From positions 5,001 to 69,000 of the forward strand of contig NZ_JABBHF010000002.1 of assembly GCF_012910715.1 (NCBI RefSeq): 64,000 bases of DNA, read 5' to 3'. A model generated the notes under the pieces. That model worked only from the letters and a program-made list of their open reading frames with translations, was not told the origin of the DNA and ran no database searches. Below are positions 4,515 through 25,847 of the stretch, piece after piece. A program made the position numbers and the translations under genes. The stretch comes from Flavivirga algicola (GTDB taxonomy: Bacteria > Bacteroidota > Bacteroidia > Flavobacteriales > Flavobacteriaceae). Every line of letters begins with the position of its first letter. Position 1 is the stretch's first letter.

Positions 4515-4935
4515 ATGCGCCAAAAATTGTAATAACAATATGTCTTGCCCCACCATAATCTCTATGCTCACATAAATAAATGCCTTGCCATATCCCTAGA
4601 TTTAATTCTCCATTTGTAATAGGAATATTTACTGATGCTCCCAACAATGATGCTTTGATATGTGCAGGCATATCGTCTGATCCTTCATAAGTATGCCGAT
4701 AATAAGATGCGTTTTCTGGAACCATGATGTTAAAATGGGATTCAAAATCGCTTCTCACTGTAGCATCTGCATTTTCATTTATGCTCAAGCTAGCTGATGT
4801 GTGCTTGATAAATACTTGTAGTTGTCCTATTCTTATTTCACGTATTTCTGGAATAGCATCTAAAATACTATTTGTAATTAAATGAAAACCTCTCGAATAA
4901 GGCTGTAACTTTATTTCTTTTTGAAAAAATTTCAT
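4513..4935 (-). CDS. YjbQ/UPF0047 family protein
   Basis: About 140 aa, the usual size of the YjbQ (UPF0047) family, which has been described as having weak thiamine-phosphate synthase activity. Characteristic stretches are HTSASLSINENADATVRSD and the C-terminal GIYLCEHRDYGGARHIVITI. The start is placed at the second Met (MKFFQKEI), matching family N-termini; an upstream Met adds five residues. Single gene, convergent with rplT and sharing its terminator. The physiological role is not settled by the context. Confidence 0.85.
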   Translation of the reverse strand: MKFFQKEIKLQPYSRGFHLITNSILDAIPEIREIRIGQLQVFIKHTSASLSINENADATVRSDFESHFNIMVPENASYYRHTYEGSDDMPAHIKASLLGASVNIPITNGELNLGIWQGIYLCEHRDYGGARHIVITIFGA

Positions 4936-5054
4936 ATTAGTAACTTTCACATTTACCCATAGCCAAATTATATATTATTGTACTTTTATGATAATTATAA
5001 CGCAACCTTTTTATTTTTTTTTCATCTACATATATAACCCCTTAATAAAAGGAT

Positions 5055-5492
5055 ATGAAAAAGTTTTTCCTAGCTATGCTGAGTATAATAACACTAACTG
5101 GCTGTTCTATAAAAAGCGATACGCAGCTTCCTGACCCTCAAACAGTAATCATTCACTGGAATTTGACTAAAATTACCGGAGGTGTAGCTGGTGTTAATGA
5201 AGAGTTTACTTTAAACACTATAGTCTGGACTTTTGGTGTATCAGATTTAAAACTTACCGTTGAAAACAATAATACAGACGACACTAAACAGGATGGGCTA
5301 GATTCGGGAACTTATGACTATTCTATCACAGAAACCAGTGGAAAATCCTTTTTAAATATTGGCAGTAATGAATTTGGTAGATTTACCGTTACCAATAATA
5401 CGCTTGTCATTGACCAAAACGAACTATCTCAAGGCAGTGGTACTGATGGTTTTGTATACACATTCCAAAAAACTATTGAAGTTATTGATTAA
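5055..5492 (+). CDS. small lipoprotein of unknown function
   Basis: 145 aa with a lipoprotein signal: basic start MKKFF, hydrophobic core, and lipobox LTGC with the Cys near residue 17. The mature part is rich in Asn, Asp and Thr and looks beta-stranded, of the kind seen in lipocalin-like lipoproteins of Bacteroidota, but I see no definite family motif. Its TAA stop shares the TTAA at 5489-5492 with the stop of the convergent neighbour. Confidence 0.7.
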   Translation: MKKFFLAMLSIITLTGCSIKSDTQLPDPQTVIIHWNLTKITGGVAGVNEEFTLNTIVWTFGVSDLKLTVENNNTDDTKQDGLDSGTYDYSITETSGKSFLNIGSNEFGRFTVTNNTLVIDQNELSQGSGTDGFVYTFQKTIEVID

Positions 5493-19044: not shown

Positions 19045-19878
19045 TTGAAAAATTTCCAAAATACATTATTTCCTTACGCCTACAATATTTTAGGCTCTAT
19101 TGACGATGCAAAAGATGCTATTCAAGATGTTTTAATCAAATACCTTTCTACCAAGAAGCATCACATAAAAAATGAAATGGGGTATTTAATCAAATCGGTT
19201 ATAAACCAATCTATCAATATCAAAAAACGGAACAATAAAACTACCGTGAATAGCATATGGTTACCCGAGCCTTTATCAACAGAAAAAACTGATGATAATA
19301 TTGATCGTGATGAAATTATATCATACTCCATGTTGGTACTTCTCGAAAAATTAACCCCTCAGGAACGTGCTGTTTTTATCTTAAAAGAAGCATTTGATTA
19401 TTCCCATAAAGACATTGCTGAAACCATAGGGCTTACCGTAGAAAACTCTCGAAAATTATTAAGCAGAGGTAAAACCAAGCTAGTTAATTACAAAGCAACA
19501 AGTTATAGCAACGACTTATTTCCTTCAGCTTCTTATATGGAAAATTATATTCAGACCATTAAAAATGGAGATGTTAAACGCTTAGAGGCAATGCTTTCCA
19601 AGGACATTTCATTACATGCAGATGGTGGAGAAAATATTAAAGTAGTAAGGGAGTTAACCACAGGGAAATCTGCTTCTTTAAAACTATTATTTTATGTATT
19701 TAAAACCTATCTGGAATTATTATCGATCAAGACCACACAAATAAATCATCAACCAGCATTGTTGTTTTATAATGAAGATACACTAATTAATTGTCAGGTA
19801 TTTGACTTTGAAAACCATAAAATAAAAAGTATATTTTCTATTGTCGACCCTAATAAACTGAAATCACTTTCTTTATAA
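19045..19878 (+). CDS. ECF41-type RNA polymerase sigma factor
   Basis: 277 aa with sigma-2 (FPYAYNILGSIDDAKDAIQD), sigma-4 (LTPQERAVFILKEAFDYSH), and a C-terminal SnoaL-like extension (about 165-277). The linker has WLPEPL, and the extension has HADGGE and VDPNKL, matching the ECF41 hallmarks WLPEPL, DGGG and NPDKL; the extension replaces a separate anti-sigma factor. The frame starts at TTG 19045, the only suitable start since the sequence upstream lacks a family N-terminus. No anti-sigma gene is adjacent. The paired promoters predict that it controls itself and the azoR-cupin operon. Confidence 0.9.
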   Translation: MKNFQNTLFPYAYNILGSIDDAKDAIQDVLIKYLSTKKHHIKNEMGYLIKSVINQSINIKKRNNKTTVNSIWLPEPLSTEKTDDNIDRDEIISYSMLVLLEKLTPQERAVFILKEAFDYSHKDIAETIGLTVENSRKLLSRGKTKLVNYKATSYSNDLFPSASYMENYIQTIKNGDVKRLEAMLSKDISLHADGGENIKVVRELTTGKSASLKLLFYVFKTYLELLSIKTTQINHQPALLFYNEDTLINCQVFDFENHKIKSIFSIVDPNKLKSLSL

Positions 19879-19881
19879 ACC

Positions 19882-19908
19882 TGTCACGTTTTTTATACCT
19901 GTTTTGTC
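19882..19908 (+). promoter_or_regulatory. candidate ECF41 promoter before azoR
   Basis: TGTCACG (19882-19888), 16-nt spacer, TGTC (19905-19908), 26 nt upstream of the azoR start. Identical blocks and spacing to the element at 18990-19016. Confidence 0.72.
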
Positions 19909-19934
19909 ATACTATTGAATTAAAAAATCAATAG

Positions 19935-20546
19935 ATGAAAACATTATTAAGAATAGACTGTAGCTCCAGAACTGTAGGTTCACATTCTAGAGCTCTAGCT
20001 GATTATTTTGAACAAAACTGGAAAACAGCCAATCCAAAAGGCACTGTTCTTTACAGGGATTTAGTTAAACACCAGCTACCCCACATTGAAAACAATACGA
20101 TTGAAGGTTTTTATACGCCTATTGAGCACATATCAGCTGAAGGCAAAAAGGCTACTGCTTTATCTGACGAATTAATTGCAGAACTAAAATCTGCCAATGA
20201 CATTCTAATTAGCAGTCCATTGTACAACTTAAACATTCCATCCAATCTTAAGGCCTATTTAGATCAGGTAGTAAGGATTGGACAAACATTCAACATTAAT
20301 GAAAATGGTTATTATGGTTTATTAGAGGATAAATTAGCCTATCTGGTAACAGCCAAAGGTGGTGTCTATAAAGGGACTTTTATGGAACAATATGATTTCC
20401 AAGAACCCTATTTAAAAGCTATTCTAGGACATATGGGTATTAAAGTTCAAGAATTATTTTCACTTGAAGGGGCTGCAAATCAACAAACCTTAGAACAAAA
20501 CAAACTCTTACTGGAAAATACCATCCGGCAATCATTCAATAAATAA
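19935..20546 (+). CDS. azoR: FMN-dependent NADH-azoreductase / quinone reductase
   Basis: 203 aa flavodoxin-like enzyme. N-terminal TLLRIDCSSRTVGSHSRALA binds the FMN phosphate, and SPLYNLNIPSNLKAYLDQV is the AzoR signature. It uses NAD(P)H to reduce azo compounds or quinones, often in stress protection. It lies behind an ECF41-type promoter and 11 nt before the cupin gene, so it is the likely main target of the sigma factor next door. Confidence 0.9.
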   Translation: MKTLLRIDCSSRTVGSHSRALADYFEQNWKTANPKGTVLYRDLVKHQLPHIENNTIEGFYTPIEHISAEGKKATALSDELIAELKSANDILISSPLYNLNIPSNLKAYLDQVVRIGQTFNINENGYYGLLEDKLAYLVTAKGGVYKGTFMEQYDFQEPYLKAILGHMGIKVQELFSLEGAANQQTLEQNKLLLENTIRQSFNK

Positions 20547-20557
20547 AAATTAAGTCT

Positions 20558-21070
20558 ATGACTACAAAAGAGAGCTATTTTGAAGACGTATTAGAAAATA
20601 ATGCATCTATAATAAAAGCCAACGAAGGCGAAAAACTCGAATTAAATACCATCTCAATAACATTTAAAGTGACCAGCGAAATGTCTAACGACCAATTAGG
20701 TATTTATGAAATTTTGCTTCCGCCTATGGCTATTGGTGCAAAATTACACTACCACAGGTTTATGGACGAGACCTTTATAGTAAATGAAGGCCTGTTAACA
20801 ATACAAGTTGCAGATAAAGAATATCAAGCAGAACCTGGAGCCGTTGCCTACATACCCAGATTTACTCCTCATGGGTTTAGAAATGACACTAATGAAACGG
20901 TAAAATTAACATTGGTTTTCAATCCATCTCAAAAGCGAGAGGGCTTCTTTAAAGGCCTATATGAAACACTCAATGAAGCACCCATTGATCCTGAAAAATA
21001 TTTAAAACTATATAATAAATATGATAGTTTTCCTGTAGATACTTCCAATATGATACCTGTTAGGACATAA
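20558..21070 (+). CDS. cupin domain protein
   Basis: 170 aa with one cupin domain at about 40-130: G-A-K-L-H-Y-H-R-F-M-D-E-T-F-I-V-N-E-G (metal ligands His, His, Glu) and the second motif PGAVAYIPRFTPHGFRND. Probably binds a metal ion; reaction unknown. Second gene of the azoR operon. Confidence 0.86.
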   Translation: MTTKESYFEDVLENNASIIKANEGEKLELNTISITFKVTSEMSNDQLGIYEILLPPMAIGAKLHYHRFMDETFIVNEGLLTIQVADKEYQAEPGAVAYIPRFTPHGFRNDTNETVKLTLVFNPSQKREGFFKGLYETLNEAPIDPEKYLKLYNKYDSFPVDTSNMIPVRT

Positions 21071-21094: not shown

Positions 21095-21235
21095 AAAAGA
21101 GGGTGTTTAAAAAGTCTTTGTAATTTGATTTGTCAGGTTGAGCCTGTCGAAACCAATATTGATTAATTAGTGTTTTAAAAATATTTCGACAAGCTCAATA
21201 TGACATAGAACATACTTTTTAGGCTCCCTCTTTTT
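21095..21235. repeat. nested palindromic repeat (REP/MITE-like)
   Basis: Outer arms AAAGAGGG...AAAAAGT (21096-21115) and ACTTTTT...CCCTCTTT (21214-21233), inner arms TGTCAGGTTGAGCCTGTCGA (from 21131) and its near-inverse TCGACAAGCTCAATATGACA (to 21205). The inner pair differs at about 3 of 22 positions. The core TTGAGCYTGTCGAAA is a common dispersed repeat in flavobacterial intergenic regions. It may also fold as a terminator after the cupin gene. Confidence 0.7.
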
Positions 21236-21394: not shown

Positions 21395-21408
21395 TAATTT
21401 TGTTTAAC
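21395..21408 (+). promoter_or_regulatory. promoter/operator of the merR-type regulator
   Basis: TAATTTTG (21395-21402) is a -7 match and is overlapped by TTGTTTAAC (21400-21408). The 14-mer TAATTTTGTTTAAC is nearly identical to TTATTTTGTTTAAC in front of crtI (22330-22343), suggesting a common regulator, most simply the MerR protein itself. Confidence 0.6.
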
Positions 21409-21423
21409 CAAAACTAAATTTCG

Positions 21424-22323
21424 ATGAACAATATTAGAGTCAATTTTAGTATTAAAGATTTAGAAAACCTTACAGGTATCAAAGCGCATACGATACGTAT
21501 ATGGGAAAAGCGCTACAATCTACTAAGCCCAAATCGATCGGATACAAACATTAGAAATTATAGCTTAGCGAGCCTGCAAAAGCTATTAAATATATCGTAT
21601 TTAAATAATAATGGGTTAAAAATCTCGAAAGTTGCTAATCTTAAAGAAGAAGAAATTCCTATAAAAGTTAGGGAAATAGCTTCGAGAGCAAAGGTTGAAG
21701 ACCATGCCATGAATGCCTTAAAAATGGCCATGATAAACTTTGACCAGGTATTATTTTATAGTACTTATAATAATTTACTCGAAACCAAAACCTTCAGTGA
21801 AATTTTCTACACTGTTTTTTTACCCTTATTAAATGAAATCGGCCTCTTATGGCAAACCAATACTATTACGCCTGCTCATGAACATTTTTTGTCCATTCAT
21901 ATTAAACAAAAGATACTTTTAAATACGGAACGGCTACAAATTTTAGAGCCTAAACCTGTTTCTAAAACCTTTGTTTTGTTTTTACCTGACAATGAAATTC
22001 ATGATATTGGGCTTTTGTTCATTAATTATCAATTAAGAAGCAAGGGGTATCATACAATTTTCCTTGGGGAAAGTGTTCCTATGGAAAGTCTCACAGATTT
22101 GCTAGAGTTTTTTGAAGAAATAACTTTTATATCTTACTTTACAGTATATCCTCCAGAACAAGAGATTCCTGACTACATTAATAAATTTAGTGAAGTATTG
22201 CTGGACAAAGAAAATACGAACCTTTTATTATTAGGTAAAAAGCTCTCTGACTTAAATATCACAAACCTTCCTCAAAAAGTAAGTATCTTTAATTCTATCG
22301 AAAATTTAGTTAAAGATTTATAA
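21424..22323 (+). CDS. MerR-family B12-binding light-sensing regulator, CarH/LitR-like
   Basis: 299 aa. N-terminal MerR helix-turn-helix (FSIKDLENLTGIKAHTIRIW, then EKRYNLLSPNR), a four-helix bundle, and a C-terminal cobalamin-binding domain. Bundle motif Trp143-x9-Glu153-His154 (in WQTNTITPAHEH) and EIHDIG (Glu191, His193, Gly196) reproduce W-x9-EH and E-x-H-x2-G of CarH, where these residues bind adenosylcobalamin and allow light-triggered release from DNA. LGESVP follows as in CarH. It directly precedes the crt operon. Predicted: a repressor of carotenoid genes in the dark, released by light. Known CarH proteins act this way; for this one it is inference. Confidence 0.85.
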   Translation: MNNIRVNFSIKDLENLTGIKAHTIRIWEKRYNLLSPNRSDTNIRNYSLASLQKLLNISYLNNNGLKISKVANLKEEEIPIKVREIASRAKVEDHAMNALKMAMINFDQVLFYSTYNNLLETKTFSEIFYTVFLPLLNEIGLLWQTNTITPAHEHFLSIHIKQKILLNTERLQILEPKPVSKTFVLFLPDNEIHDIGLLFINYQLRSKGYHTIFLGESVPMESLTDLLEFFEEITFISYFTVYPPEQEIPDYINKFSEVLLDKENTNLLLLGKKLSDLNITNLPQKVSIFNSIENLVKDL

Positions 22324-22329
22324 ATATTT

Positions 22330-22366
22330 TTATTTTGTTTAACTTTTAACTATATTCGTTAAACAA
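22330..22366 (+). promoter_or_regulatory. crt operon promoter with inverted-repeat operator
   Basis: TTGTTTAAC (22335-22343) and GTTAAACAA (22358-22366) form a perfect 9-bp inverted repeat with a 14-nt centre, ending one base before the crtI ATG. Possible -7 elements are TTATTTTG (22330-22337) and TATATTCG (22351-22358). The left half matches the merR promoter's TTGTTTAAC (21400-21408). Confidence 0.6.
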
Positions 22367-22367
22367 T

Positions 22368-23831
22368 ATGAAATTAACTGCAAATATAATTGGTTCTGGG
22401 TTTTCATCTTTGGCAGCTTCGTGCTACTTAGCCAAGGCTGGCTACGAAGTCACTATTTTTGAAAAGAATGATACCATTGGAGGTAGAGCACGACAACTTG
22501 TAAAAGAAGGGTTTACCTTTGATATAGGTCCTACATGGTATTGGATGCCAGATGTATTTGAGCGTTTTTTTTCAGATTTTAACAAATCTCCTCAAGACTA
22601 TTATACTTTAGAAAAACTTAATCCAGCATATAGCGTGTATTTTGGAAAGGATGATTTTATAAAGATAGAAGATACCTTAGAAAAAATAGCCGTAGCTTTT
22701 GAAAAGGAAGAAACCGGAAGCTCTAAGAAGCTAAAAAAATTCATTAAACAAGCAGAAAGCAATTATGATATAGCCATTAAAGATTTGGTTTATAATCCAG
22801 GTGTTTCTCCTTTAGAATTAGTTACTCCAGCTACAGTTAAAAAGTTAAATCAATTTTTTAGTAACATAAAAAAAGATGTTAGAAGAGAATTTAAGAACCA
22901 AAGACTTGTCAAGATTCTCGAGTTTCCCGTTTTGTTTTTAGGAGCTAAACCTAGTGACACACCTTCTTTTTATAGTTTTATGAATTATGCCGATTTTGGT
23001 TTGGGGACATTTCACCCAAAAAACGGCATGTACCAAGTAATTTTAGCTATCGAAAATTTAGCAAAAGAATTGGGGGTAACTATTAAAACCAATACACCCA
23101 TAGAAAAAATTATTGTAAAAAACGGAAAATATAAAGGTATTGTTTCGCGTGGAGAGACCTACGCATCTGATATTATTGTTAGTGGTGCCGACTATCATCA
23201 CACAGAATCACTTTTAGAAAAACCACATAGGCAATACTCTGAAAATTATTGGAACAAAAAAACGTTTGCGCCGTCCTCACTCCTATTTTATGTAGGGTTT
23301 GACAAAAAATTAAAAAATGTAGATCACCACACTTTATTTTTTGATGTTGACTTCGATATGCATGCCGAAGCCATATATGATACTCCTCAGTGGCCTGAAA
23401 ATCCATTGTTCTATGCTAGCTTTCCAAGTAAAACAGACACCAATTCTGCTCCTGAAGGAAAAGAAGCTGGCATATTTCTAATTCCATTGGCTCCAGGATT
23501 AAATGATACTCCAGAATTAAGAGAAATCTATTTTAATAAAATCATGCATCGATTTGAAAGTTTAACCTCACAGAATATAAAAAAACATATTATCTTTAAA
23601 GAAAGTTTTTGTGTCAACGATTTTATTAATGATTATAATTCGTATAAAGGAAATGCTTATGGAATGGCGAATACCTTAACACAAACTGCTTTTTTAAGAC
23701 CAAAATTAAAAAGCAAAAAAGTAAAAAACTTGTTTTTTACCGGTCAATTAACAGTCCCTGGTCCAGGAGTCCCTCCTTCATTGATATCAGGCAAACTAGC
23801 AGCAGATTTAGTAACAAAATACCATCACTAA
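22368..23831 (+). CDS. crtI: phytoene desaturase
   Basis: 487 aa. FAD-binding N-terminus NIIGSGFSSLAASCYLAKAG followed by IFEKNDTIGGRARQL, and the C-terminal CrtI signature TGQLTVPGPGVPPSLISGKL. Introduces the double bonds that turn phytoene into lycopene. First gene of crtI-B-Z-Y, with only two nt to crtB. Confidence 0.95.
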   Translation: MKLTANIIGSGFSSLAASCYLAKAGYEVTIFEKNDTIGGRARQLVKEGFTFDIGPTWYWMPDVFERFFSDFNKSPQDYYTLEKLNPAYSVYFGKDDFIKIEDTLEKIAVAFEKEETGSSKKLKKFIKQAESNYDIAIKDLVYNPGVSPLELVTPATVKKLNQFFSNIKKDVRREFKNQRLVKILEFPVLFLGAKPSDTPSFYSFMNYADFGLGTFHPKNGMYQVILAIENLAKELGVTIKTNTPIEKIIVKNGKYKGIVSRGETYASDIIVSGADYHHTESLLEKPHRQYSENYWNKKTFAPSSLLFYVGFDKKLKNVDHHTLFFDVDFDMHAEAIYDTPQWPENPLFYASFPSKTDTNSAPEGKEAGIFLIPLAPGLNDTPELREIYFNKIMHRFESLTSQNIKKHIIFKESFCVNDFINDYNSYKGNAYGMANTLTQTAFLRPKLKSKKVKNLFFTGQLTVPGPGVPPSLISGKLAADLVTKYHH

Positions 23832-23833
23832 TT

Positions 23834-24673
23834 ATGAAATTATTATTCGATACGGTCTCTTATAATTGCAGTAAGCTCGTTACGAAGACTTACAGTACAT
23901 CATTTTCATTAGCGACAAAAATGCTTTCCAAATCAATTAGAATGGATATTTATAATATTTATGGGTTTGTCCGTTTTGCTGATGAGATTGTTGATTCCTT
24001 TCATGATTATAACAAGGAACAACTTTTTAACAAGTTTTCTGATGATTTAGAACTTGCTTTAAAGGATAAAATTAGTCTAAACCCAATTCTCAATTCATTT
24101 CAGCATACATTTCATAAATATAATTTAGACAAAAGCTTGGTAGATGCTTTTATGAAAAGTATGCGTTTGGACTTACACAAAACCCAATATCTTACCGAAG
24201 AAGAATACAAAGCCTACATTTATGGATCTGCAGATGTTGTTGGGCTTATGTGTCTAAAGGTTTTTGTAAAAGGAGACCAAACTAAATATGAAGCACTTAA
24301 AGATACTGCTATGTCTTTAGGCTCGGCATTTCAAAAAGTGAACTTTCTTAGAGATTTGAAAACCGATTTTGATGACTTGAACAGAACTTATTTTCCTAAA
24401 ACTGACCTGAATAATTTAAACGAAGCATCAAAACAAGATATTATAAATGATATTGAGGCAGATTTTGCTAAAGGTTTAAGTGGTATAAAAAAATTGCCTA
24501 TTGAAGCTAAATTTGGGGTATTCATTGCTTACAGATATTATCGTCAACTGTTAAAAAAGCTAAAAAACACACCAGCTCTTCAAATTAAAAACACTCGGAT
24601 ACGGGTTTCTAATCCTAAAAAAATAGAACTTTTAATGCGCAGTTATGTAAAATATCAATTAAATTTAATGTAA
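23834..24673 (+). CDS. crtB: phytoene synthase
   Basis: 279 aa. Trans-isoprenyl diphosphate synthase fold with both Asp-rich motifs: FADEIVDSFHD (first, about 53-63) and FLRDLKTDFDDLNR (second, about 172-185). Joins two geranylgeranyl diphosphates to give phytoene. Second gene of the crt operon. Confidence 0.94.
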   Translation: MKLLFDTVSYNCSKLVTKTYSTSFSLATKMLSKSIRMDIYNIYGFVRFADEIVDSFHDYNKEQLFNKFSDDLELALKDKISLNPILNSFQHTFHKYNLDKSLVDAFMKSMRLDLHKTQYLTEEEYKAYIYGSADVVGLMCLKVFVKGDQTKYEALKDTAMSLGSAFQKVNFLRDLKTDFDDLNRTYFPKTDLNNLNEASKQDIINDIEADFAKGLSGIKKLPIEAKFGVFIAYRYYRQLLKKLKNTPALQIKNTRIRVSNPKKIELLMRSYVKYQLNLM

Positions 24674-24683
24674 TTTTATAGGT

Positions 24684-25133
24684 ATGCATACGGTGTTTTG
24701 GATATTGATTTTTTTGGGAACCTATTGCTTTATGGAGTTTATGGCATGGTTTACACATAAATATGTTATGCATGGTTTTTTATGGACTCTACATAAGGAT
24801 CATCACAAAAAAGATCATGATAGTTGGTTTGAGCGCAATGATGCTTTCTTTATTTTTTATGCTGTTGTTAGCATTGCTTTTTTTCTATTATGGAAATACA
24901 CGAGTTTTTGGGCTGGTTTACCAATAGGTATAGGGATATTTGCTTATGGCCTATCTTATTTTATCGTTCATGATATCTTTATACACCAGCGTTTTAAATT
25001 GTTTAGAAATGCCAATAATTGGTATGCGAAAGGCGTAAGGCGTGCCCATAAAATGCATCATAAACACCTTGATAAAGAGGATGGTGAGTGCTTTGGAATG
25101 TTAATCGTTCCCTTTAAATACTTCAAAAAGTAG
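24684..25133 (+). CDS. crtZ: beta-carotene hydroxylase
   Basis: 149 aa membrane protein of the fatty acid hydroxylase fold with three to four hydrophobic segments and the His clusters HKYVMHG, HKDHHKKDHD, HDIFIHQRF and HKMHHKHLDKED that hold the di-iron centre. Converts beta-carotene to zeaxanthin at the 3 and 3' positions. Third gene of the operon, 10 nt after crtB and three nt before crtY. Confidence 0.93.
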   Translation: MHTVFWILIFLGTYCFMEFMAWFTHKYVMHGFLWTLHKDHHKKDHDSWFERNDAFFIFYAVVSIAFFLLWKYTSFWAGLPIGIGIFAYGLSYFIVHDIFIHQRFKLFRNANNWYAKGVRRAHKMHHKHLDKEDGECFGMLIVPFKYFKK

Positions 25134-25136
25134 CAG

Positions 25137-25847
25137 ATGAATTATTTATACCTGTTATTAAACTTGGGATCTATATCGATTCCCTTTTTATTCAGTTTTC
25201 ATCCTAAGTTAAATTTTTTTAAGCGCTGGAAACCTTTATTTGTGGGAATTTCAATAAGTATGCTCTTATTTATTCCCTGGGATATTATTTTTACCATGAA
25301 TGGTATTTGGGGGTTCAATAATGATTATTTTCTCGGCTTCAAATTATTTTCTTTGCCTATTGAAGAATGGCTTTTTTTTATATGTATTCCTTATGCCTGT
25401 ACCTTTACGCACTATGCGTTATTGTATTATTTCCCCAATTTGAAATTATCACAACCAAGAACTAAAACAATTAGTTACTTACTTGTATTACTATTATTAG
25501 TTTTTTCAATTTATAATAGCTCGAAATGGTATACGCTTATAAATTTTCTATTGGCAGCAATTCTAATTAGCATCGTCATTAAAAAGAGCCCCAATTTATT
25601 GAGCAGTTTCTATTTAACATTTTTAGTTATGCTTATTCCTTTTTTTATAGTAAATGGGGTATTAACGGGTAGTTTTATTAGAAATGAGGTTGTTTGGTAT
25701 AACAATTTAGAAAATTTAAATATTAGATTATTCACGATTCCTATTGAAGATGCTGTATATGCATTTTCTCTTATTCTTTTAAATCTGTTCATAATGCATT
25801 ATTTGGAATCTAAAAGAAATTCTACTGCTCCAATAAGTCCTCGATAG
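25137..25847 (+). CDS. crtY: lycopene beta-cyclase, fused CrtYcd type
   Basis: 236 aa with about six membrane segments and two copies of the cyclase motif: LPIEEWLFF (about 77-85) and IPIEDAVYAF (about 201-210). This is the single-chain form of the heterodimeric CrtYc/CrtYd cyclase that forms both beta rings of lycopene. Last gene of the crt operon. Its 3' end overlaps the convergent tlpA-like gene by 26 nt. No crtE (geranylgeranyl diphosphate synthase) is in the cluster. Confidence 0.92.
   Translation: MNYLYLLLNLGSISIPFLFSFHPKLNFFKRWKPLFVGISISMLLFIPWDIIFTMNGIWGFNNDYFLGFKLFSLPIEEWLFFICIPYACTFTHYALLYYFPNLKLSQPRTKTISYLLVLLLLVFSIYNSSKWYTLINFLLAAILISIVIKKSPNLLSSFYLTFLVMLIPFFIVNGVLTGSFIRNEVVWYNNLENLNIRLFTIPIEDAVYAFSLILLNLFIMHYLESKRNSTAPISPR

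Follow-up and report, generated by a model that had tools for sequence, protein, structure and literature searches.

We found that, in a 64,000-nucleotide stretch of DNA from Flavivirga algicola (contig NZ_JABBHF010000002.1, positions 5,001 to 69,000; the window), a gene for a CarH-like regulator and the carotenoid gene cluster crtI-crtB-crtZ-crtY that follows it share one predicted operator, an inverted pair of half-sites that recurs in front of crtI, fasciclin lipoprotein genes and other genes of related Flavobacteriaceae. Taken together, the observed pattern and its conservation, the gene sets that it marks, and the residues and predicted fold of the regulator make it probable that the protein is a CarH-like repressor with a conserved regulon, dependent on adenosylcobalamin (AdoCbl) for repression in the dark and released by light. 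From these observations we infer binding of these sites by this protein, repression, cobalamin binding and the response to light.

carH and crtI share a whole predicted operator

The elements of the carH-crtI region are as follows.

21395..21402, + strand: −7 box of carH, TAATTTTG (TAnnTTTG), overlapping the left operator half; TA present in 74 of 76 pair-bearing loci
21399..21408, + strand: predicted left half of the carH operator, TTTGTTTAAC (TnnACA on the − strand)
21424..21432, + strand: predicted right half of the carH operator, ATGAACAAT (TGAACA at 21425-21430), embedded in the start codon
21424..22323, + strand: carH-like gene, 299 amino acids; MerR DNA-binding domain, four-helix and Rossmann B12-binding-type domains
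22334..22343, + strand: left half of the crtI operator, TTTGTTTAAC, predicted from the sequence and relatives
22351..22358, + strand: −7 box of crtI, TATATTCG (TATATTTG in many relatives), overlapping the right operator half
22358..22366, + strand: right half of the crtI operator, GTTAAACAA (TnnACA as TAAACA at 22360-22365), predicted from the sequence and relatives

An earlier, sequence-only reading of this DNA had pointed to a nearly identical 14-mer in the two promoters, which we found as TAATTTTGTTTAAC at 21395-21408 before carH and TTATTTTGTTTAAC at 22330-22343 before crtI, and to a perfect 9-bp inverted repeat at crtI, which we likewise found (TTGTTTAAC at 22335-22343 and GTTAAACAA at 22358-22366, ending one base before the crtI ATG). 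The 14-mer is, however, not an operator half in its own right: the TAnnTTTG inside it is the −7 box of carH, whereas the −7 box of crtI (TATATTCG) lies on the other half. Nor does carH have only half an operator, as that reading had supposed, having missed the right half; the full pair is present there, with TnnACA beginning 23 bases after the left G, the same place that TAAACA takes at crtI, where the G bases of the two halves are 21 bp apart. carH and crtI thus share the whole predicted operator, and the difference between them is which half carries the −7 box. The pair at both genes is what self-regulation and crt control by one operator type, as predicted, would call for.

The flavobacterial sigma-A −7 box is described as TAnnTTTG, spanning −12 to −5 (PMC9723704; here and below, citations by PMC number refer to excerpts of the papers). 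carH has an exact match (TAATTTTG) and crtI a match with one change (TATATTCG). If the crtI box spans −12 to −5, transcription would start near 22363, with a leader of ~5 nt.

Across the window, single 9-mers with up to one mismatch were as frequent as chance would give (46 found against 49.9 expected), which leaves the pair and its geometry as the only informative features. With a spacer of 2 to 30 bases, the exact inverted pair was found at one place in the 5.02-Mb genome (none with the reversed-pattern control), and a scan of the window allowing up to three mismatches in the pair returned four rows, two for the carH site (one per strand), one for the crtI site and one for 42271, against a mean of 0.28 expected.

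We compared 81 loci, the F. algicola locus and 80 kept of 100 relatives from one scan, a set in which distant members are under-sampled. The full carH pair, defined as a left half matching at least 7/8 plus the right TnnACA, was present in 76 of them (74 at +23 and 2 at +24), compared with 17 of 8100 shuffled regions. Among the remaining five, the left half is weaker and the right half unchanged in L020, L021 and L048, the pair is missing from L065, and L072 is truncated by the end of its contig. The start codon alone is insufficient to explain the right half, because the pair is kept where the ATG is located past the right half, at 40 to 43 bases from the left G (L041, L063 and L080), and where there is no ATG at +22 (L043, L054, L055 and L058). 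Furthermore, AAC at +25 to +27 was invariant in the 68 loci of the first scan with a start at +22; across these genes, Asn is encoded by AAT 1168 times versus 657 times by AAC.

At 70 of the 81 loci, crtI lies at least 35 bp behind carH. Scored against the pair, 58 of these gaps reached at least 14/18 and 56 at least 16/18, a score reached by none of 3500 shuffles; by eye, two of those below threshold (L053 and L074) have the halves at another spacing. Ten further loci, with carH and crtI only 15 to 28 bp apart, lack the second operator and look like single operons, and one locus has no crtI nearby. The second operator was also not seen in the ~28-bp gap of L197 (genome G066).

An inverted pair rather than direct repeats

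Known CarH sites are described as tandem 11-bp direct repeats with TnnACA as their core (PMC9304148). In the sites examined here, only one TnnACA element per strand is common to carH and crtI, and these two make up the inverted pair. The palindromic right half gives a second − strand TnnACA 21 bp from the first at 50 of 58 crtI sites and at all 14 of the 17 fasciclin sites that were included, and at fewer than 15% of the carH sites (74 loci, selected for having the pair). Tandem 11-bp direct repeats with TnnACA were looked for and rejected: beyond the 21-bp extra copy, there were only scattered ones, at +2 in 13 of the 74 carH sites and at −20 in 4 of the 14 fasciclin sites.

The regulator resembles CarH

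The regulator aligns with CarH of Thermus thermophilus (TtCarH; phmmer E 3.2e-14, ~24% identity) over W143-x9-E153-H154 and E191-I-H193-D-I-G196, supporting a CarH-like protein with the key residues, and its predicted fold includes the four-helix bundle and the Rossmann B12-binding fold. The N-terminal MerR domain matches PF13411 (52.6 bits), and its recognition helix reads RIWEKRY, a single K/R exchange from RxWERRY. Among the 81 orthologues, W143 and E153/H154 are invariant; ER replaces EH in 2 of 20 further relatives (L192 and L198). In the lower-ligand motif D/ExHx2G, E191 and H193 are present in 81/81 and G196 in 80/81, counts that are biased by the fact that one of the six search stretches used to collect relatives covers the motif.

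The sequence-only reading had credited the protein with the complete set of AdoCbl-binding residues. This is true of the adenosyl cap and the lower ligand; the place of His132, the upper ligand of the light state, is taken by Gln in 81/81, and the GG tail is degenerate. The regulator is the single match in its own genome (5.02 Mb, 37 contigs) at E 0.001 or better. It was found in 12 of the 12 genomes of the genus that were searched, and the closest genus-named orthologues are from Flavivirga (92%).

The pair marks a predicted regulon

The pair pattern occurs twice in the F. algicola genome, once at crtI and once ahead of a gene for a lipoprotein with five fasciclin domains, 19 bases from its start. 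A degenerate pair (two mismatches; 0.04 expected in the stretch) precedes an operon encoding an SDR/DUF2867 protein, TspO, an SRPBCC-like protein (labeled by eye, with no Pfam match) and a DNA photolyase. This site is less certain because the pair does not lie on the TATATTTG box but upstream of it.

In 12 genomes of the genus, we found 21 sites, 10 before crtI and 11 before a fasciclin-type lipoprotein gene (by eye), with no match to the reversed-pattern control. We then turned to the family with the exact pattern, which includes TTYG ahead of the right half. Single-linkage blastp clustering sorted the downstream genes into groups, from which representatives alone were scanned, so that the fasciclin labels of other members mean similarity to a scanned one, while those of the genus and order samples were read by eye from the N terminus. 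Of 120 genomes, 51 had sites, 80 in total, and the control matched twice. A scan of related genomes for the pair before crt and photolyase genes had been proposed as a check; 34 sites stand before crtI and 3 before an SRPBCC-like-SDR-photolyase operon (the photolyase of L169 was scanned, the rest assigned by eye). The others stand before genes for fasciclin lipoproteins (17), GLPGLI proteins (6), an unknown protein of ~140 residues (3; L135 together with DUF2805 and GTP cyclohydrolase I genes, and L139 alike by eye) and a mevalonate-kinase-like GHMP kinase (2). Seven are single cases, including Blh and a CrtW-like protein (under the cut-off), and for eight no frame was found, among them L132, which stands before carH itself. 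Chance may account for the sites before the KAS-III-like gene, the HtpG-like gene and at most three more single genes (L116, L141 and L146; by eye). The sites L112, L152 and L161 fall inside long open frames, and no gene was found to follow them.

The TA of the −7 box lies outside the search pattern. TAnnTTYG was nevertheless in place at 61 of the 80 pair sites, including 33 of the 34 at crtI and 17 of the 17 at fasciclin genes.

In a sample of 148 genomes drawn from the order, sites were present in 12 of 21 members of the family versus 1 of 127 others, and the controls gave none. By eye, the 16 new loci comprised crtI (6), fasciclin-type lipoproteins (3), a two-gene unit whose second gene is ABC1-kinase-like (2) and one each of an SRPBCC-SDR pair, a DUF2805 operon, an exonuclease-like gene, a photolyase/cryptochrome-like gene at a distance of 204 bases and an unknown gene with a GTP-cyclohydrolase-like one behind it.

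Regulator, sites and cobalamin supply

Sites were found in 48 of 87 genomes with a close orthologue of the regulator versus 3 of 33 without one (Fisher p 2.8e-6), the former group being the 96 matches less nine with E 1e-39 to 1e-48. The three exceptions are G015, whose site (L152) looks spurious, being inside a long open frame that no gene was found to follow; G035, which has a divergent homologue; and G089, which is 81% complete. The nine divergent relatives with 32 to 39% identity (L182 to L190) are of another CarH-like type, reading WG..MPAQEH or close to it in most, with different upstream DNA; a pair site was found in one of these nine genomes (G035), and three of them (L183, L186 and L190; 33 to 38% identity) have a crtI match nearby on the other strand.

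The F. algicola genome encodes a PF01923 adenosyltransferase and has two cobalamin riboswitches, one of which is followed by a TonB receptor gene beside a group of CobU, DBI_PRT/CobT, CobS and CobC-like (by eye) genes. PF01923 was present in 83 of the 87 orthologue-bearing genomes and in 26 of the 33 others, a weak test because 109 of the 120 genomes have it. A cobalamin riboswitch of this genome (contig C1, locus L104, 5238-5371, − strand; 39.5 bits) lies ~79 bp before a small PAS-domain gene (4629-5159, − strand). The protein resembles a LOV domain but reads GRKPNFLQ at the place of the LOV cysteine motif; because B12 may thus control a possibly light-related protein, this locus deserves attention.

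Proposed mechanism and alternatives

In the mechanism that we propose, the AdoCbl-loaded protein would bind in the dark to the two inverted half-sites (TGTTTA ... TnnACA, 21 bp apart), so that the bound operator would cover the −7 box of the target promoters and block RNA polymerase. Light, or loss of the cofactor, would end binding and allow the genes, including carH itself, to be transcribed. The one operator would be docked in two ways: at carH, the left half carries the −7 box and the right half the start codon, and at crtI and the fasciclin genes, it is the right half that carries the −7 box. The predicted targets in F. algicola are carH, crtI-crtB-crtZ-crtY and the five-domain fasciclin lipoprotein gene and, with its degenerate site, the SDR-TspO-SRPBCC-photolyase operon; in relatives, they would also include GLPGLI, Blh, CrtW-like, mevalonate-kinase-like and GTP-cyclohydrolase operons.

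Several observations weigh against this mechanism. In the protein, Gln144 stands at the place of His132 in 81/81. The classic tail x41-SxT/V-x22-27-GG was not found as such: S237 is present in 71/81, one residue closer than x41, and T240 and G271 are present in 81/81, with the GG position of the nucleotide tail reading G-K or G-R in 58/81. The NCBIfam CarH equivalog NF052513 is the best-scoring family, but at 70.3 bits against a cut-off of 400. A His132-type ligand is present in many, but not all, CarH and class I LitR members. The H132A variant of TtCarH is reported to remain a tetramer for the most part after light, although the same paper cites an earlier report in which it dissociates (PMC10442372). 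In the DNA, 12 of the 70 crtI loci fell below threshold, and in L017, L022 and L027, which are close relatives, the crtI operator is lost and the carH pair retained. The −7 box is in place at only 9 of the 21 other sites and 2 of the 8 without a gene. Exact sites are absent from 39 of the 87 orthologue-bearing genomes, a figure qualified by the strictness of the pattern and by the operon-type loci that have only the carH pair, which the pattern does not match. Finally, 4 of these 87 genomes, two of them 99% complete, lack the PF01923 adenosyltransferase, and the literature that we covered contained no binding, spectral or expression data for this protein.

Gln144 and the loss of GG, together with the behavior of H132A TtCarH, would also fit a corrinoid-binding regulator that reports cofactor supply, redox state or oxygen and that light switches weakly or not at all. 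We regard this as unlikely, although it is the strongest of the alternatives: the residues that hold the adenosyl group in TtCarH (W143 and E153/H154) are invariant in the 81 orthologues, and photolyase, cryptochrome-like (by eye), carotenoid and retinal genes among the targets fit light. SasPcob, which carries Gln at the His132 place (PMC11796333), is counted both among the points against the proposed mechanism and against this alternative. The genomes without PF01923 would suit a CarA-like protein, in which an inherited B12 pocket is not needed and B12-independent DNA binding is relieved by an antirepressor or another signal; Myxococcus CarA is described as keeping the B12 motif and EH while working without B12. 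It is also described as lacking the Trp of Wx9EH (PMC9304148), which is present here as W143 in 81/81, and we think a CarA-like mode of action improbable.

Another transcription factor might bind the pair, or the MerR protein might be an activator at these promoters: the link between regulator and sites is one of sequence, most MerR proteins activate, and sites occur in three genomes without a close orthologue. However, the pair stands at carH itself in 76/81 loci, its half-sites match the CarH element TnnACA, each operator covers a place at which repressors act (the −7 box or the start), and the three genomes are the exceptions described above, so that we give this reading slightly less credence still. 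A 9-bp inverted repeat with a short loop between carH and crtI could, in principle, form an RNA hairpin or attenuator. We rejected this because the −7 box lies inside the pair, which would leave the left half outside the crtI transcript; the identical pair before unlinked genes and the half-sites that straddle the −7 box and start codon at carH also make it extremely improbable.

Returning to CarH-like repression, a broader form of it, in which much of the Flavobacteriaceae has a B12-dependent light regulon built on one two-docking operator, with a switch that works without bis-His and holds the cobalamin tail differently and with fasciclin lipoproteins as a main target beside pigment and DNA repair, is a tentative proposal to which we give somewhat less than an even chance. 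Light control through this operator would also tie an external supply of vitamin B12 to light protection, because the F. algicola genome shows cobamide salvage genes.

Relation to known systems

Sunlit surface waters are rich in flavobacteria. Work on Chryseobacterium lacus (PMC7064467) leaves open how light switches the pigment genes of these bacteria, and a short exact operator that marks a regulon makes the question testable by naming targets, promoter geometry and residues. The C. lacus zeaxanthin cluster, from another flavobacterial lineage and compared here by its published description, likewise has crtI, crtB, crtZ and a cyclase with the CarR domain and is light induced; the regulator is reported as unknown, and in the excerpt the authors state that they found no car or lit genes (PMC7064467). 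We take this cluster as independent support for light control of such a flavobacterial crt cluster.

The CarH/class I LitR proteins of T. thermophilus (PDB 5c8d, 5c8e and 3whp) share with the F. algicola protein the MerR, four-helix and Rossmann B12 domains, Wx9EH, ExHxxG, a position at crt genes and the TnnACA half-site; a photolyase gene lies nearby in Thermus, and photolyase operons are among the sites here. They differ in sequence (~24% identity), in His132, where there is Gln here, and in the tail, which is a degenerate S/GG here. Their operator is described as three tandem 11-bp direct repeats, one with the −35 element (PMC9304148), in contrast to inverted halves 21 bp apart on the −7 box. 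The CarH/CarA proteins of the Myxococcales and Bacillus CarH are also CarH/LitR homologues at carotenoid genes with operators over promoter elements, and the Myxococcus xanthus site contains inverted repeats common to some relatives; binding there has been assigned to direct repeats (PMC9304148), whereas the inverted pair alone is common to carH and crtI here. The class II LitR regulon of Pseudomonas putida (PhrB, FolE and CryB) resembles ours in its photolyase and GTP cyclohydrolase I targets (PMC9758184), but class II LitR keeps the four-helix part only, and that of P. mendocina serves a LOV protein, whereas both B12-type domains are present here. CtMerR and the photocobilins (PDB 8jbs and 8j2w) are unlike our protein in that the photocobilins have other architectures, and the excerpts state no carotenoid regulon.

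CarH, LitR, their sites and a MerR gene before flavobacterial crtI are already known, the last having been noted in Sediminicola YIK13 (PMC4732338). MliR of Bizionia is MerR-like without an effector domain and so is not this protein (PMC9478572). Our literature search, which covered few subscription journals, returned no description of the inverted operator, the two dockings or the regulon.

The crt genes and their surroundings

Gene order and matching families agree with the earlier placement of the regulator directly before crtI-B-Z-Y.

22368..23831, + strand: crtI, phytoene desaturase family; NCBIfam CrtID above its cut-off
23834..24673, + strand: crtB, phytoene synthase family, PF00494
24684..25133, + strand: crtZ, beta-carotene-hydroxylase-like (FA_hydroxylase), PF04116, no NCBIfam match; named by position and size
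25137..25847, + strand: crtY, two-repeat lycopene-cyclase-domain type; PF18916 and TIGR03462, two stretches each

From these families, zeaxanthin, the product named in the sequence-only reading, is the likely product of the cluster; it is not settled, because CrtI scores above the cut-off that NCBIfam sets for a bifunctional phytoene/3,4-desaturase.

Just before carH, genes for a SigJ/SigX4-type sigma factor (under the family cut-offs), an azoreductase-like protein and a cupin lie in a row (19045-21070). Between the cupin gene and carH, nested inverted repeats at 21095-21234 (arms 21131-21152/21184-21205 and 21095-21115/21214-21234, each pair 86% complementary) look like an intergenic repeat element. 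One metagenome-assembled genome, CAIJFC, has two CarH-like genes (contigs L073 and L079), with crtI 21 bp after one and 57 bp after the other, the latter with a different sequence before crtI.

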